Program-made: the position numbers and the translations under genes | The notes under the pieces: generated by a model | Seen by the model: the letters and a program-made list of their open reading frames with translations, nothing else | What the model was told of the DNA's origin: nothing | Databases searched by the model: none | Shown: piece by piece, positions 2,534 through 37,989 of the stretch | How positions within the stretch are numbered: position 1 is the stretch's first letter | How the letters are laid out: each line of letters begins with the position of its first letter | Origin: an uncultured Lachnospiraceae bacterium | Lineage (GTDB): Bacteria; Bacillota; Clostridia; Lachnospirales; Lachnospiraceae | Direction of reading: 5' to 3' | NCBI GenBank assembly: GCA_947650005.1 | Contig: CANSTU010000029.1 | Span: 1 to 37,989, forward strand | DNA length: 37,989 nucleotides

Positions 2534-5500
2534 GTGAGAACTTTGAAGGACATGTATACGAAGATCCGGGAAGACGGATGGCAGAAAAGGATAGAGGCTT
2601 TGAAGTTCTCCTGCCAGGAAGTGGCGGTCTGCGCAGACAGGGATGAAGTGGTGGAGGGATTTTTCACCGCATTCTGTGAGAACGGCCAGAGCGTGGAAGG
2701 ATATGTTTTCTGCGACGAAGAACGGATGAAATGCCTGACCCCATGGTTTTCGGGGATGTGTGAAAATATAGGATATCGTTTTGACGCCAGGGGGATGCGG
2801 GAAGGGGAAGAACGGGAAGGGATTTTCCAGATTGTATCCGATGCGGGGGAATATGAACTGCCCTTCCGGGCCAGGGTGACGCGCAAGGGGCTTACCTGTT
2901 CGGAGGGCCCCATGGAAAATCTGTTCCAGTTCACCAGCCTGGCCCGGGCCAAGTGGCAGGAGGCGGTGAACCTTTTCTACTCCCCGCAGTTTGTGCGGCT
3001 TTTCGACGGGGTGGACAGGAAGTTTGGCAGCCTGTATCAGGGATTGTCCCGCATCACAGGAAACGAGCAGAATGTGGAAGAATTCCTGGTATCCGTTCAG
3101 AAGAAACAGCCTGTGGAATACCTTCTGCCTACGAGGGAGGCGGTGGTGAATCTCTATCCCACCGGGGTGGAGGAGAGCCAGCGATGTGAGACGCTCAAGA
3201 TCATAAGGAACGGTTGGGGTTATACCCGCCTGAAAGTGGAAACCGTGGGGGATTTCCTTTTTACGGAGAAAAAGGTGCTGCGGGAGGAAGATTTCTTGGG
3301 GAACCAGTGCACCCTTCCTGTTTTCATCAATCCGGAGCTGCTGCACGGCGGGAAAAATTTCGGGAAGGTGGTCCTGCGCCATGGAGGCGGAAAGCTGGAA
3401 GCGAATCTGACGGTGATCAAGAATAGGGAACACCGGATGGGGAAGGGCAGCCGACGGCGTGAAATGAAAAAGATGATGGTGGAGCTGGTCCGGCTCTATC
3501 AGAACTATAAGATGAAAAAGATAAATGCCGGCATGTGGCGCGCCCAGACCACGGAGGTTGTGGAGCGTATGCGGCGGCTGGACGACCGGGCCGTGGAGGG
3601 AAAGCTCTATCAGGCGCAGCTTCTGATGACCGGAGAGTCGTATGAGGAGGCCGGGAAGCTCCTGGAAGGCCTGGAGGTGGATCTAGACCAAAACGGACCG
3701 GAGATATACTGCTACTATCTCTACCTTTCCAGCCTGTACCACCAGGACGATGTATATACGACGGAAGTATTGATGCAGGTGGAGGATTTGTATCGTGTTT
3801 ATAGGGACAGCTGGCGGATTGCCTGGCTGCTCTTGTTCCTGTCTCCAGTGCTGCGGCGGAGCGTGTCCAGGAAGTGGCTGTTTCTGGAGGAACAGTTCCA
3901 GCACAGCGGCACCAGCCCGGTATTATACTTGGAAGCCTTGCATCTTGTCAATATGAGTCCCACCCTGCTGCTGAAGCTGGATACTTATGAAATCCAGCTG
4001 CTGCATTTTGGAGCAAAGAATCAGATTCTGTCCGACGACTTGGTGAGCCATGTGGCTTATCTGGCAGGGAAGGAAAAGTACTACAGGGAAAGCCTGTTCC
4101 GGATCCTGGCGGCCTGTTATGAGAAAAAGAAGGACACCCACACGCTCTATGCCATTTGTACGCTGTTAATCAAGGGCAACAAACAGGGAAGCGCTTATTA
4201 TGAGTGGTATCGGCTGGGCGTGGAAGAGGAGCTGCGGGTAACCCGGTTATATGAATATTATATGCTGTCCGTGGATCTGGAAAAGGAAGTGGAGATCCCC
4301 CGGATCGTGCTGATGTATTTCGCCTATCAGAGCAACCTGGAGCAGGAACGATGCGCTTATCTGTATTCTTATATCTTAAAGCATAAAGGAGAGATGCCCG
4401 AGCTTTATAGCGCCTATAAAGGGCAGATTGACCGTTTCATCCTGCAGCAGCTCCATAAAGGCAGGATGGACAGGCATCTGGCTTGGCTGTATGAAAACAT
4501 GCTGGATGAGCGGATGTTCAACAAGGATAACTGCCAGGCGCTGGCCCCCCTGGTATTTTTACAGGAATTGGAGTGCGGCGGGGAGGATATCCGCCGCGTG
4601 GTGGTGATACATAGCAGGCTGCGCGGGGAGCAGGTCTGCCCGGTGGAAAACAAAAGGGCTTATGTGGCGCTCTTTGACAGGGATCACGAAATCCTGCTGG
4701 AGGATGAGATGCACAACCGGTATTCCGCCGGAAGGGCTTATACGCTTTCTCCCCTCCTCAATCCGGCGAAGTGCTTAAAGGTCCTGGGAGGAGAAGTGGG
4801 GCACGTGCTGGGATATGACCTGTTCTGCTGCGGAGGCAGAAAGGGGAAGTTCCACGTCAACCGGCACAATGCGGCGCGGTTTCGTTATCTGGCCTCTTCC
4901 GAACAGGTGGCGCCAGCCTTTGCCAGGAAGATGCGTATGGCGCTCCTTCGTTATTATTATGAAAAGGAGGAGCCGGAGGAACTCGACCTGATCCTGGAGG
5001 ATCTGCAAAAAGGGGATGTGGAGAGCGGTGACGTGTATGAAGCGGTCCATATCCTGATTCAGCGTTCTTTTTATGAAAAAGCCTATGACTGGCTGGAGGG
5101 AATGGATTCGGGGAAGGTGGATGAGAAAGCGCTTTTGCGGCTGTGCAGCCGGCTTTTGGAAAGCGGGCTGCACGGGCAGGAAAAGCGTATGACGCTCCTT
5201 TCGTCCCATGTCTTTTCCCGGGGAAAATATGATAGCCATGTGCTGGGCCATCTTGTGGCGCATGCAGAGGGGGTCAGCCGGATATTGCTGGGGATCTGGG
5301 ACGCGGCGGAGAATTTTGCCGTGGATACCTATTCCCTTACGGAAAGGCTCCTGGTGCAGTTCTTATTTATCGGGGATAATGTGATGGATAGAACCGGAAT
5401 GTTCCGCCGGTATTTGATGGAGGGAGGGCGCAGCGACGTGGAGGCGGCCTTTCTGCACCGTTGCTGTGGCCTGTATCTGATGGATGGGGTGAAGATGGAT

Positions 5501-6127
5501 GCCTATGTGCTGCGGGACGTGGCCCGCGCTGCGGCCCGGGAAGACCGGCTGAGCGATATGTGCCGTCTTTCCTATCTGGAATATTATTCCCGTTATCGGG
5601 ACGAGAGGCGGCCGAAGACGGATGAGGTAATCAAGAAGTTCGGGGAACAGCTCATTCGGAAGGATATGAAGCTGCCCCTTTTCCAGGAATATGTGGATGT
5701 CCTGGAGGGGGCGCAGGCCATGTTGGACAAGACCATGGTGGTATATAAGGGGGATCAGGACCGTCCGGTAACCATCCATTATCGGATTTTCAAGGCGGCA
5801 CACCTGGAAGAACCCCTGTGCTGCATGGAAATGCAGCACATCTATGCGGGGATCTATACCGCTGCATTTGTGTTGTTTGCGGGAGAAAGCCTGGAGTATT
5901 TTATCACGGAAACGGCTGCGCAGGACGGCACGCGTTTAGACGGCGGGGAACTGCGGATGGCGGACGGAAACGTATTGGGAGAGGAGAGCCGTTACGGCCG
6001 GCTGAACGGGATCGCTTCCAGATGGCTGGCAGGAGAGAAGGGAGAGGCCCAGGAACGGCTGGAAGGCTATCTCCATACGGAATGGATGGCAGACGGGCTC
6101 TTTAAGCCCTTGGATACGGATGCATGA
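2534..6127 (+). CDS. Very large DUF5717-like protein with helical repeats
   Basis: This is a 1197-residue protein of unknown function, resembling the DUF5717 proteins of Lachnospiraceae; that name is from memory and unverified. No signal peptide or clear membrane segment is visible, so it is probably cytoplasmic. Residues 1-310 look like beta-rich modules separated by helices. Residues 320-1050 are almost entirely amphipathic helices of TPR-like spacing (for example ALLRLCSRLLESGL and KLYQAQLLMTGESYEEAGKLL). The last 120 residues return to beta strand, with HYRIFKAAHLEEP and IYAGIYTAAFVLF. The start is GTG at 2534; a TTG at 2543 is possible, as the Shine-Dalgarno is weak. The three genes that follow run the same way, and the architecture suggests a scaffold. 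No enzymatic motif was found. Confidence 0.8.
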   Translation: MRTLKDMYTKIREDGWQKRIEALKFSCQEVAVCADRDEVVEGFFTAFCENGQSVEGYVFCDEERMKCLTPWFSGMCENIGYRFDARGMREGEEREGIFQIVSDAGEYELPFRARVTRKGLTCSEGPMENLFQFTSLARAKWQEAVNLFYSPQFVRLFDGVDRKFGSLYQGLSRITGNEQNVEEFLVSVQKKQPVEYLLPTREAVVNLYPTGVEESQRCETLKIIRNGWGYTRLKVETVGDFLFTEKKVLREEDFLGNQCTLPVFINPELLHGGKNFGKVVLRHGGGKLEANLTVIKNREHRMGKGSRRREMKKMMVELVRLYQNYKMKKINAGMWRAQTTEVVERMRRLDDRAVEGKLYQAQLLMTGESYEEAGKLLEGLEVDLDQNGPEIYCYYLYLSSLYHQDDVYTTEVLMQVEDLYRVYRDSWRIAWLLLFLSPVLRRSVSRKWLFLEEQFQHSGTSPVLYLEALHLVNMSPTLLLKLDTYEIQLLHFGAKNQILSDDLVSHVAYLAGKEKYYRESLFRILAACYEKKKDTHTLYAICTLLIKGNKQGSAYYEWYRLGVEEELRVTRLYEYYMLSVDLEKEVEIPRIVLMYFAYQSNLEQERCAYLYSYILKHKGEMPELYSAYKGQIDRFILQQLHKGRMDRHLAWLYENMLDERMFNKDNCQALAPLVFLQELECGGEDIRRVVVIHSRLRGEQVCPVENKRAYVALFDRDHEILLEDEMHNRYSAGRAYTLSPLLNPAKCLKVLGGEVGHVLGYDLFCCGGRKGKFHVNRHNAARFRYLASSEQVAPAFARKMRMALLRYYYEKEEPEELDLILEDLQKGDVESGDVYEAVHILIQRSFYEKAYDWLEGMDSGKVDEKALLRLCSRLLESGLHGQEKRMTLLSSHVFSRGKYDSHVLGHLVAHAEGVSRILLGIWDAAENFAVDTYSLTERLLVQFLFIGDNVMDRTGMFRRYLMEGGRSDVEAAFLHRCCGLYLMDGVKMDAYVLRDVARAAAREDRLSDMCRLSYLEYYSRYRDERRPKTDEVIKKFGEQLIRKDMKLPLFQEYVDVLEGAQAMLDKTMVVYKGDQDRPVTIHYRIFKAAHLEEPLCCMEMQHIYAGIYTAAFVLFAGESLEYFITETAAQDGTRLDGGELRMADGNVLGEESRYGRLNGIASRWLAGEKGEAQERLEGYLHTEWMADGLFKPLDTDA

Positions 6128-34702: not shown

Positions 34703-34715
34703 ACGGGGGCTTTCC

Positions 34716-35044
34716 TCTACCGCCATCATCGTCCGGAGGGTAACGCCCCTGCCAGGGTTCTCCCCAGGCTACAGGCGGCGAAGCGCCCCGGCCTTGATTT
34801 AGGAAGGGAGGGCCATAGGATACTTTTCGAGTGCATTTCATGCCATGGAGACGAGACCTGCTTCCCAGGAGGGCCGTATCCCGACTGGGAAGCGGCCAGG
34901 GCTCGTCGCAATGCCTGGCATGACGGCACTCGAAAAGTATCCTATGGCCCTCCCTTCCTAAATCAAGGCCGGGGCGCTTCGCCGCCTGTAGCCTGGGGAG
35001 AACCCTGGCAGGGGCGTTACCCTCCGGACGATGATGGCGGTAGA
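34716..35044. repeat. 119-bp perfect inverted repeat with structured 91-base centre
   Basis: The left arm (34716-34834) and right arm (34926-35044) are exact reverse complements over 119 bases. The 91-base centre (34835-34925) can fold further: CATGCC with GGCATG at its edges and CTTCCCAG (34861-34868) with CTGGGAAG (34885-34892) inside. The whole could form a single 329-base foldback. Flanks differ on the two sides, so it is not a simple fold-back of the neighbouring sequence. No target-site duplication is evident. The centre is related to the right edge of the window. Confidence 0.95.
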
Positions 35045-35583
35045 ATATTGTTCCCATCGGGGGCCCCCATTTTCTGGGTATATCCGGCGATGGTCCGGAT
35101 AACCCTTTCGGGCTCCTGCCCGCCATGCTTTAAGAAGGCATGAAAAGAGCCCTGGATTGCGAAGGTAAGGAGAATTTCCTTTTCCTCGCACTGTGCATAC
35201 TCCGGATGGCTACGCATCACCAGGTCGCGAATCCGCTCCTCTATTTTGGTGACCAGGACGCTTCTCCTGCTTCCCGAGAAGAGGATGTATAAAAGGCGGG
35301 TCTGGGACTGAAAGGCCTGGAAGATTTCCACAGTGGCACGACCAGGCTGATCCAGGAGGGTATCGGGGTGGGGAATGGAACCGATGATATTGTCGATCAA
35401 CTCGTCTTCCATGGATTCGGCTAGGTCGTAGATGTCGTGATAGTGTTGATAAAATGTGGCTTTGTTGATAAAAGCCAATTCGGAAAGCTCCTTAATGGTG
35501 ATCTTTTCAATGGGTTTCCTAGAACGCAGTTCTATAAAGGCGCTGTGGATGTTTGCCCTTGTACGTTGAATTCTCAGATCCAT
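35017..35583 (-). CDS. TetR family transcriptional regulator
   Basis: This 188-residue regulator, divergent from glgB, has an N-terminal HTH at residues 8-55 (RANIHSAFIELRS, KITIKELSELAFINKATFYQHYHDIY) and a helical ligand domain. The last nine residues (LPPSSSGG region) are encoded by the right arm of the inverted repeat, so the natural C-terminus was probably replaced. The core helices end before this tail at IRTIAGYTQKMG, so activity is likely kept. The target could be glgB or itself; a palindrome lies in the shared promoter region. Confidence 0.88.
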   Translation of the reverse strand: MDLRIQRTRANIHSAFIELRSRKPIEKITIKELSELAFINKATFYQHYHDIYDLAESMEDELIDNIIGSIPHPDTLLDQPGRATVEIFQAFQSQTRLLYILFSGSRRSVLVTKIEERIRDLVMRSHPEYAQCEEKEILLTFAIQGSFHAFLKHGGQEPERVIRTIAGYTQKMGAPDGNNILPPSSSGG

Positions 35584-37723: not shown

Positions 37724-37910
37724 AATCCGGCCGACCATCCTCCAGATTAGGAACAATCTATCCATAAGGGCTGTTTGGCGTATACACCGCTCTAGGGAAA
37801 CAGAAATGAAACAGCTGCGGCCACGCCCTGTCAGGATTCCGCGGGGGAGCGTCCCAGGAGAGGAGCATCCCAGGAGGGGAGCGGCTGCCCATGTTTCCCC
37901 GCGCCATCGC
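37724..37910. other. Intergenic stretch after glgB
   Basis: No gene is supported here. The motif GAGCGTCCCAGGAG followed by GAGCATCCCAGGAG is a short direct repeat near 37845-37880. No clear terminator for glgB was found. Confidence 0.4.
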
Positions 37911-37989
37911 GCCAGACATTCCGATGAGCCCTGGACGCTTCCCAGTCGGGCAATGGCCCTCCAGGGAAGCAGGTCTCATCTCCATGGCG
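37911..37989. repeat. Second copy of the inverted-repeat core, cut by the window end
   Basis: This 79-base stretch matches the reverse complement of the centre of the 34716-35044 element at about 69 of 79 positions, counted by eye. CTTCCC (from 37938) can pair with GGGAAG (to 37979), as in the first copy. The 119-base arm is not present on its left side; the right side is outside the window. Confidence 0.85.

Follow-up and report, generated by a model that had tools for sequence, protein, structure and literature searches.

The perfect inverted repeat at positions 34716–35044 of the window, i.e., the whole 37,989-nt stretch of Lachnospiraceae DNA analysed here, is probably one copy of a MITE-type element, in which palindromic arms running over nearly the whole length are kept matched by DNA copying from arm to arm, around a conserved and structured core. 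The window corresponds to an entire contig (C29) of a draft genome of 3.59 Mb in 138 contigs. A repeat search placed the left arm at 34716–34834 and the right arm at 34926–35044 (no strand assigned to either), the two being 100% complementary over 119 nt with 91 nt between them, so a chance origin is impossible. A sequence-only reading of the same DNA had already described this repeat, the divergence of the flanks immediately beyond both arms and the location of the site at a junction of convergent transcription, where the ORFs on both sides converge, and we recovered all three.

The conserved core of the window copy (34824–34936, plus strand), supported by covariation, takes in 11 nt of each arm and is a quasi-palindrome with conserved asymmetric internal loops. 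It matched positions 1–113 of our covariance model R1 at 130.1 bits (E = 1.5e-29), although the 26 rows of the model include this copy itself. A motif of the core, read from the sequence on the plus strand, was found to be conserved across genera in alignment A3, with CCATGGAGACGAGACC as its 5' side (34843–34858) and GGGCTCGTCGCAATGCCTGG as its 3' side (34899–34918). Besides this copy, we noticed a second one on the minus strand (37894–37989; model R1 positions 18–97), which is cut inside its core by the right contig end and whose centre (37894–37988) was absent from the earlier reading. Elsewhere in the window, positions 2534–6127 encode a 1197-aa protein matching DUF5717 across almost its full length.

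Searching the genome of the window with the covariance model of the core (26 rows; 150 of 2128 candidates scored) yielded 105 matches at 75 distinct places, of which at least 11 are contig-end pieces, so that two may come from one copy, and a few are weak. At least 60 arm positions were paired in 56 of the 61 places examined, and fewer than 10 arm mismatches were likewise found in 56 of the 61 (27 in the worst). Among 35 copies, mismatches amounted to 69 of 3555 arm pairs (1.9%), the arms were perfect in 12, and the longest unbroken pairing was 134 pairs, the window copy being third with 119. The arms were matched within each copy and largely dissimilar between copies: in a set of 26, the cores were on average 81% identical between copies and the two arms of one copy matched at 86–96% over the inner 70 nt, whereas ungapped arm identity between copies was 24–44%, depending on the distance from the core. 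The arms of different copies are not wholly unrelated, as core and arm identities are correlated (rho 0.48), yet they are still near the shuffled level; in one pair of copies the cores were 97.8% identical and the arms 57%, which is the shuffled level. As arms drift between copies while matching themselves within each, perfect arms do not imply the recent origin that had been suggested from their identity. The earlier reading had also held that an arm found only once in the genome would speak against it. When we searched with the 329-nt element (40 of 96 candidates scored), only two other matches extended beyond about query positions 85–244, one on contig C1 (78%, positions 36–297) and the other on C4 (76%, positions 31–231), although dozens of copies exist. 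A single occurrence of the arm sequence is a misleading criterion here, because the element is repeated while its arms differ.

A pattern scan of genome contigs matched at least 107 stretches, carried by Eisenbergiella tayi (including its type strain DSM 26961), E. porci, Lachnospiraceae bacterium CE91-St56, Hungatella and other Lachnospiraceae MAGs, as well as records labelled only Clostridiaceae, Clostridia or bacterium. The complete single-contig genome of CE91-St56 (AP025576.1) has dozens of copies. These copies, together with the 75 places in the genome of the window (some of them contig-end pieces), make an assembly artefact very unlikely, in agreement with the earlier argument against a simple fold-back error; the presence of copies in single-contig genomes and of orthologous copies disfavours a fold-back as well. 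Matches were found in 6 of 61 relatives, the genome of the window counted in, and in at least 13 of 299 genomes of the family (14 candidates per genome scored), while a survey of 348 genomes of the phylum gave a match only in the genome of the window among the candidates scored (12 per genome); the copy numbers from the family and phylum surveys are minima, and some carriers may have been overlooked. The genome G267, a single contig from another genus, holds eight elements with the core; their paired stretches span 30–64 positions and vary in sequence from copy to copy. From its kinship to three relatives (G001, G003 and G012), we infer that the species of the window groups with Eisenbergiella. 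Carriage by phages or plasmids gained no support, one CE91-St56 copy having no match in phage and plasmid collections, and the core pattern had no match in viral contigs. In CAJTGF01 records (L080, L090, L100, L145 and others), many cores occur as inverted pairs approximately 400 or 730 bp apart; four of these stretches, when folded, placed the cores within larger nested hairpins with no long ORF.

The nested stem that had been noticed in the centre of the window copy is indeed a stem of its own, covarying across copies. The core structure has 39 pairs, 19 of which changed on both sides, a figure that none of 500 shuffles reached; further pair types in the core were not above shuffles (91/500). 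Across genera, 39 diverse cores share the motif CCATGGAGATGAGAC...GGCTCATCGGAATG around a stem of free but paired sequence, in which 95.5% of cells were paired and the covariation was 0.523, versus 0.176 in shuffled and 0.08–0.11 in slid alignments. An internal loop, GGA versus GGA in most of the 39 cores and GGA/GCA in the window copy, stays unpaired beside nearly perfectly paired arms. Two pairs of orthologous loci, one between CE91-St56 and E. tayi (L153/L161) and the other between two Eisenbergiella MAGs (L085/L156), were available for comparison. Changed sites numbered 4/185 in the core, 32/390 in the arms and 274/1985 in the flanks (core versus arms, p = 0.005; core versus flanks, p = 2e-7), and for L153/L161 alone the difference between core and arms was not significant (p = 0.27). 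These figures, from two loci only, point to selection on the core. The orientation of the centre was identical within both orthologous pairs, and we saw no support in the assembled sequence of these pairs for the invertible segment that the sequence-only reading had listed as an option. Five CE91-St56 copies (L193, L194, L195, L197 and L207) share an insertion of approximately 16 nt on one side of the core only, which is itself palindromic (AATTACTTTAGTAATT). A known RNA family was also considered and dropped, as neither the window nor five further loci matched Rfam 15 at the gathering score. With an E-value threshold instead, the window element gave MIR918 at 106 and 104 bits (gathering score 268), probably because any long hairpin fits that model, together with four weak matches, to CRISPR-DR35 and HTT-AS1_3.

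The case for mobility is clearest in CE91-St56. Its young copies end in ACTCAAACTTCGCAGG and the complement, and a 14-mer pattern of these ends matched 82 times forward and 72 times in reverse, against 10 and 10 for the reversed control; the window copy has long arms but lacks the ACTCAAACTTCGCAGG end motif. An exact 5-bp target duplication flanks 18 of 31 CE91-St56 copies, and five more agree in four of the five bases, whereas mismatched left–right pairs of copies gave an exact duplication in 8 of 930 cases. Short, non-coding copies dispersed over the genome of the window (75 places, some being contig-end pieces), together with the terminal inverted repeats and 5-bp target duplications of CE91-St56, identify a non-autonomous transposon (MITE), so that the MITE-like mobile element proposed in the sequence-only reading is supported. 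In the genome of the window, most target duplications cannot be made out: a 6-mer common to both ends was seen in 5 of 32 copies, versus 14 of 992 mismatched pairs, in a test for which the ends are approximate and the 7-bp repeat of the window lies outside the test windows. This scarcity counts against the MITE reading. In E. porci, the region corresponding to the L194 site of CE91-St56 lacks that element: one GTGTA stands there, whereas L194 has TTGTA on both sides; E. porci has an element of its own near the equivalent site. Four CE91-St56 loci (L233, L234, L235 and L237) carry core-less hairpins of about 30–45 bp with the same ends as full elements, which, judged from their sequences, are likely relics left by central deletions.

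The locus of the window was compared with G002, whose flanks are the most similar among 12 genomes of the same genus. No element is present there, and 19 bp lie between the shared anchors, versus 365 in the window. In the window, CGGGGGC occurs twice around the arms (34704–34710 and 35058–35064, plus strand) and G002 has a single CGGGCGC. This 7-bp repeat is only a candidate target duplication, the duplications in the relative CE91-St56 being 5 bp long. At its outer end the left arm reads CCTCTaCCGCC, similar to CCTCTCCGCC of G002, which hints, in this one case, that the palindrome may have grown into host DNA. Including the window locus, 13 sites were readable in G002 (12 of the 14 probed, L011 and L015 being unreadable). 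The core was not seen in any of these 13 stretches, and the core matches listed for G002 lie only on two other contigs. Five sites (L017, L019, L021, L026 and L029) retain the terminal-repeat motif, a relic or another hairpin, two (L004 and L012) a short hairpin, and six (L001, L003, L005, L006, L010 and L016) neither motif nor hairpin. As five sites keep such traces, some insertions may predate the divergence from G002. The G002 hairpin at the L029 site (L335) contains nested inner hairpins and no core, and a 15-nt direct repeat surrounds it.

How the arms change can be followed in copies of increasing divergence. In CE91-St56, the share of symmetric differences among symmetric plus one-arm differences was 0.25 under 2% divergence and then 0.28, 0.46, 0.82 and 0.89 in the later bins (the last being above 20%); in the 10–20% bin, 1429 symmetric differences were observed versus 88 expected under independence, counts that are not independent as pairs of copies share ancestry. 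Close copies thus differ chiefly on one arm and divergent ones mostly by mirrored changes. Orthologous pairs take the transposition step out of the comparison. The arm columns of L153/L161 comprised 2 symmetric, 9 one-arm and 2 other changes (0.17 symmetric expected), and those of L085/L156 comprised 4, 5 and 2 (0.46 expected). Over both sites, 6 of 24 changed columns were symmetric, one of them a 1-nt indel, versus about 0.6 expected with independent arms, i.e., approximately ten times chance. One-arm changes outnumbered symmetric ones (14 versus 6, plus 4 other), and this excess, seen also in the close CE91-St56 copies, indicates that correction is slow relative to recent divergence. In each of the two pairs, one site is swapped, with C on the left and T on the right in one species and the reverse in the other. 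L029 and the hairpin at the same intergenic site in G002, which share the end motif, differ by 30 symmetric, 11 one-arm and 6 other columns; the arms of the G002 hairpin match each other at 84% (78/93). The speed of arm change is inconsistent, being not above that of the flanks at the two orthologous loci, yet between L029 and G002 the arms are about 50% identical and the left flank 88%. In copy L195, the left GGA of the core has become TCC, which complements the right side exactly. The active homogenisation that had been put forward as one option is supported by the mirrored differences in CE91-St56, at the two orthologous sites and at L029/G002. The idea that the arms are copies of host coding sequence gained no support from 13 elements checked in other genera: adjacent genes mostly stop before the arms or reach only slightly into them.

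These patterns fit arms kept matched by templating between them at the DNA level. The terminal inverted repeats would span almost the whole element and form one long hairpin around the structured core, and a transposase acting in trans would move it. After insertion, arm-to-arm copying of DNA would keep both arms alike, most likely by template switching at the replication fork during hairpin extrusion (quasi-palindrome correction), a step that we infer. A change in a single arm would then be lost again or passed on to the opposite arm, so that copies diverge while each stays self-matching. The core may resist such copying because its asymmetric loops are under selection, and what is selected would be the fold of a single strand (of DNA or of RNA) to which some protein binds. 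It is tempting, though distinctly tentative, to speculate that the element inherits shape and not sequence: only the folded core and the matching of the arms would be kept, arm sequences would continually be replaced on the two sides together, at times more quickly than the DNA around them, and the core would function at many fixed sites.

Alternatively, the hairpin may act as an RNA, and selection purging unpaired mutants would keep the arms matched. The strong covariation of the core stems and the conservation of the core at two orthologous loci agree with this idea, which we nevertheless consider unlikely. Such selection should tolerate or enrich G·U, but G·T and A·C mismatches on the core strand numbered 18 and 41 in the genome of the window. 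This count also speaks against selection, on that strand, of the very stable RNA suggested in the sequence-only reading. The corresponding figures, from partial sets with some places counted repeatedly, were 10 and 16 in CE91-St56, 10 and 14 in E. tayi and 4 and 8 in E. porci, with a mixed set of other genomes (15 and 5) siding with RNA. Seen from the other strand, the surplus of A·C in the genome of the window is one of G·U, so an RNA from that strand could still fit. Pairing over approximately 100 bp, however, exceeds what an RNA function should need, and the symmetric 1-nt indel would be hard to reach by separate steps. Strand bias, considered as a sign of transcription, gave no clear signal, the co-directional contexts being 7 sense and 8 antisense in the genome of the window and 4 and 12 in CE91-St56. 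If the arms were equalised only during transposition (e.g., by repair of a hairpin intermediate) and not in place, symmetric differences among paralogues would likewise arise, but the symmetric changes between same-site orthologues in two pairs and at L029/G002 make this very unlikely. It also appears quite unlikely that the copies are dispersed regulatory or chromosome-organising sites of the host, with long arms as a by-product, rather than mobile DNA. The core is more conserved than the flanks at the two orthologous loci, and 31 of 32 copies tested in the genome of the window and 25 of 25 in CE91-St56 lie outside ORFs (simple ORF caller), both as expected of host sites; against this stand the target duplications and the young, near-identical copies in CE91-St56, as well as the patchy hosts (at least 13 of the 299 family genomes, at limited depth). 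A role as host sites could exist in addition to mobility.

If the element is a MITE, as we prefer, its transposase should be encoded elsewhere. No transposase gene was seen to recur in the 25 largest clusters of ORFs adjoining the copies, and in the 17 stretches examined no two terminal repeats enclosed a gene (100 of the 154 terminal-repeat matches listed for CE91-St56). The ends of IS982 start with AC, for which we tried the IS982-type transposase (PF13612), and it had no match in the genome of the window. Y1 chemistry is not expected to make target duplications, and the 5-bp duplications of CE91-St56 therefore argue against a REPIN-type element that a Y1 (RAYT) transposase mobilises, as does the absence of any PF01797 (Y1_Tnp) match in the genome of the window (G000, 97.7% complete). 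Dispersed intergenic hairpins and Y1_Tnp matches in three relatives (G012, G001 and G003) would suit that explanation, which we regard as extremely improbable. REPINs (PMC3116915) are alike in being dispersed, intergenic, non-autonomous hairpins, whereas in our elements the arms are far longer, a relative shows 5-bp target duplications and the genome of the window has no Y1 match. At one CE91-St56 locus (L214), half an element lies between two of three similar tandem genes. These three genes presumably encode Rpn-type nucleases. Rpn-like genes near two terminal repeats of CE91-St56 were considered and rejected, as no paired ends were found. SbcD is part of a nuclease attacking palindromes, and its loss might have explained how these palindromes survive; it was matched in all 16 genomes (15 above the cut-off), so that loss of SbcCD, judged from its SbcD half, was dismissed, and we counted the presence of SbcD against our preferred explanation.

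Bacterial MITEs, such as RUP and Correia/NEMIS, are short, non-coding and dispersed like the present element, with terminal inverted repeats and target duplications (here in CE91-St56). Unlike in those elements, the arms here pair over nearly the entire length and differ strongly between copies, and it is the interior core that is conserved across genera. In PMC8794818, templating by the reverse complement is a proposed process that can restore perfect pairing with double substitutions; the process is alike, but it concerns the stems of RNA genes there and arms of approximately 100 bp in mobile elements here. Perfect inverted repeats of up to 284 bp are described in PMC6649704 from mitochondrial genes of Nematomorpha, with long perfect arms like ours, but within coding genes and not as dispersed mobile copies. 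According to PMC13155455, indels on both arms preserve large inverted repeats on Enterococcus faecium plasmids; these symmetric indels are alike, but the repeats are three on related plasmids and not a dispersed family, and the survey in the same paper covers spacers only up to 8 bp, so that the present elements would fall outside its list. In open PMC articles, we found no description of such an element in Lachnospiraceae.

Most of what is known about template-switch correction of imperfect palindromes comes from reporters and from reconstructed histories. The dozens of long palindromes in this single genome, about 2% of whose arm pairs remain mismatched, form a natural system in which to study the self-repair of DNA mirror repeats; under an assumed simple balance of mutation and conversion, a site would be converted at roughly a hundred times the rate at which it mutates. 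With self-correcting arms and a core with mismatched loops, mutational templating and selection are separable in one molecule. The hairpins also break assemblies in practice: the draft has 276 contig ends, and at least 11 lie within a core. Finally, covariation alone is no proof of RNA structure, as the covariation of these arms seems to have its cause in the DNA.
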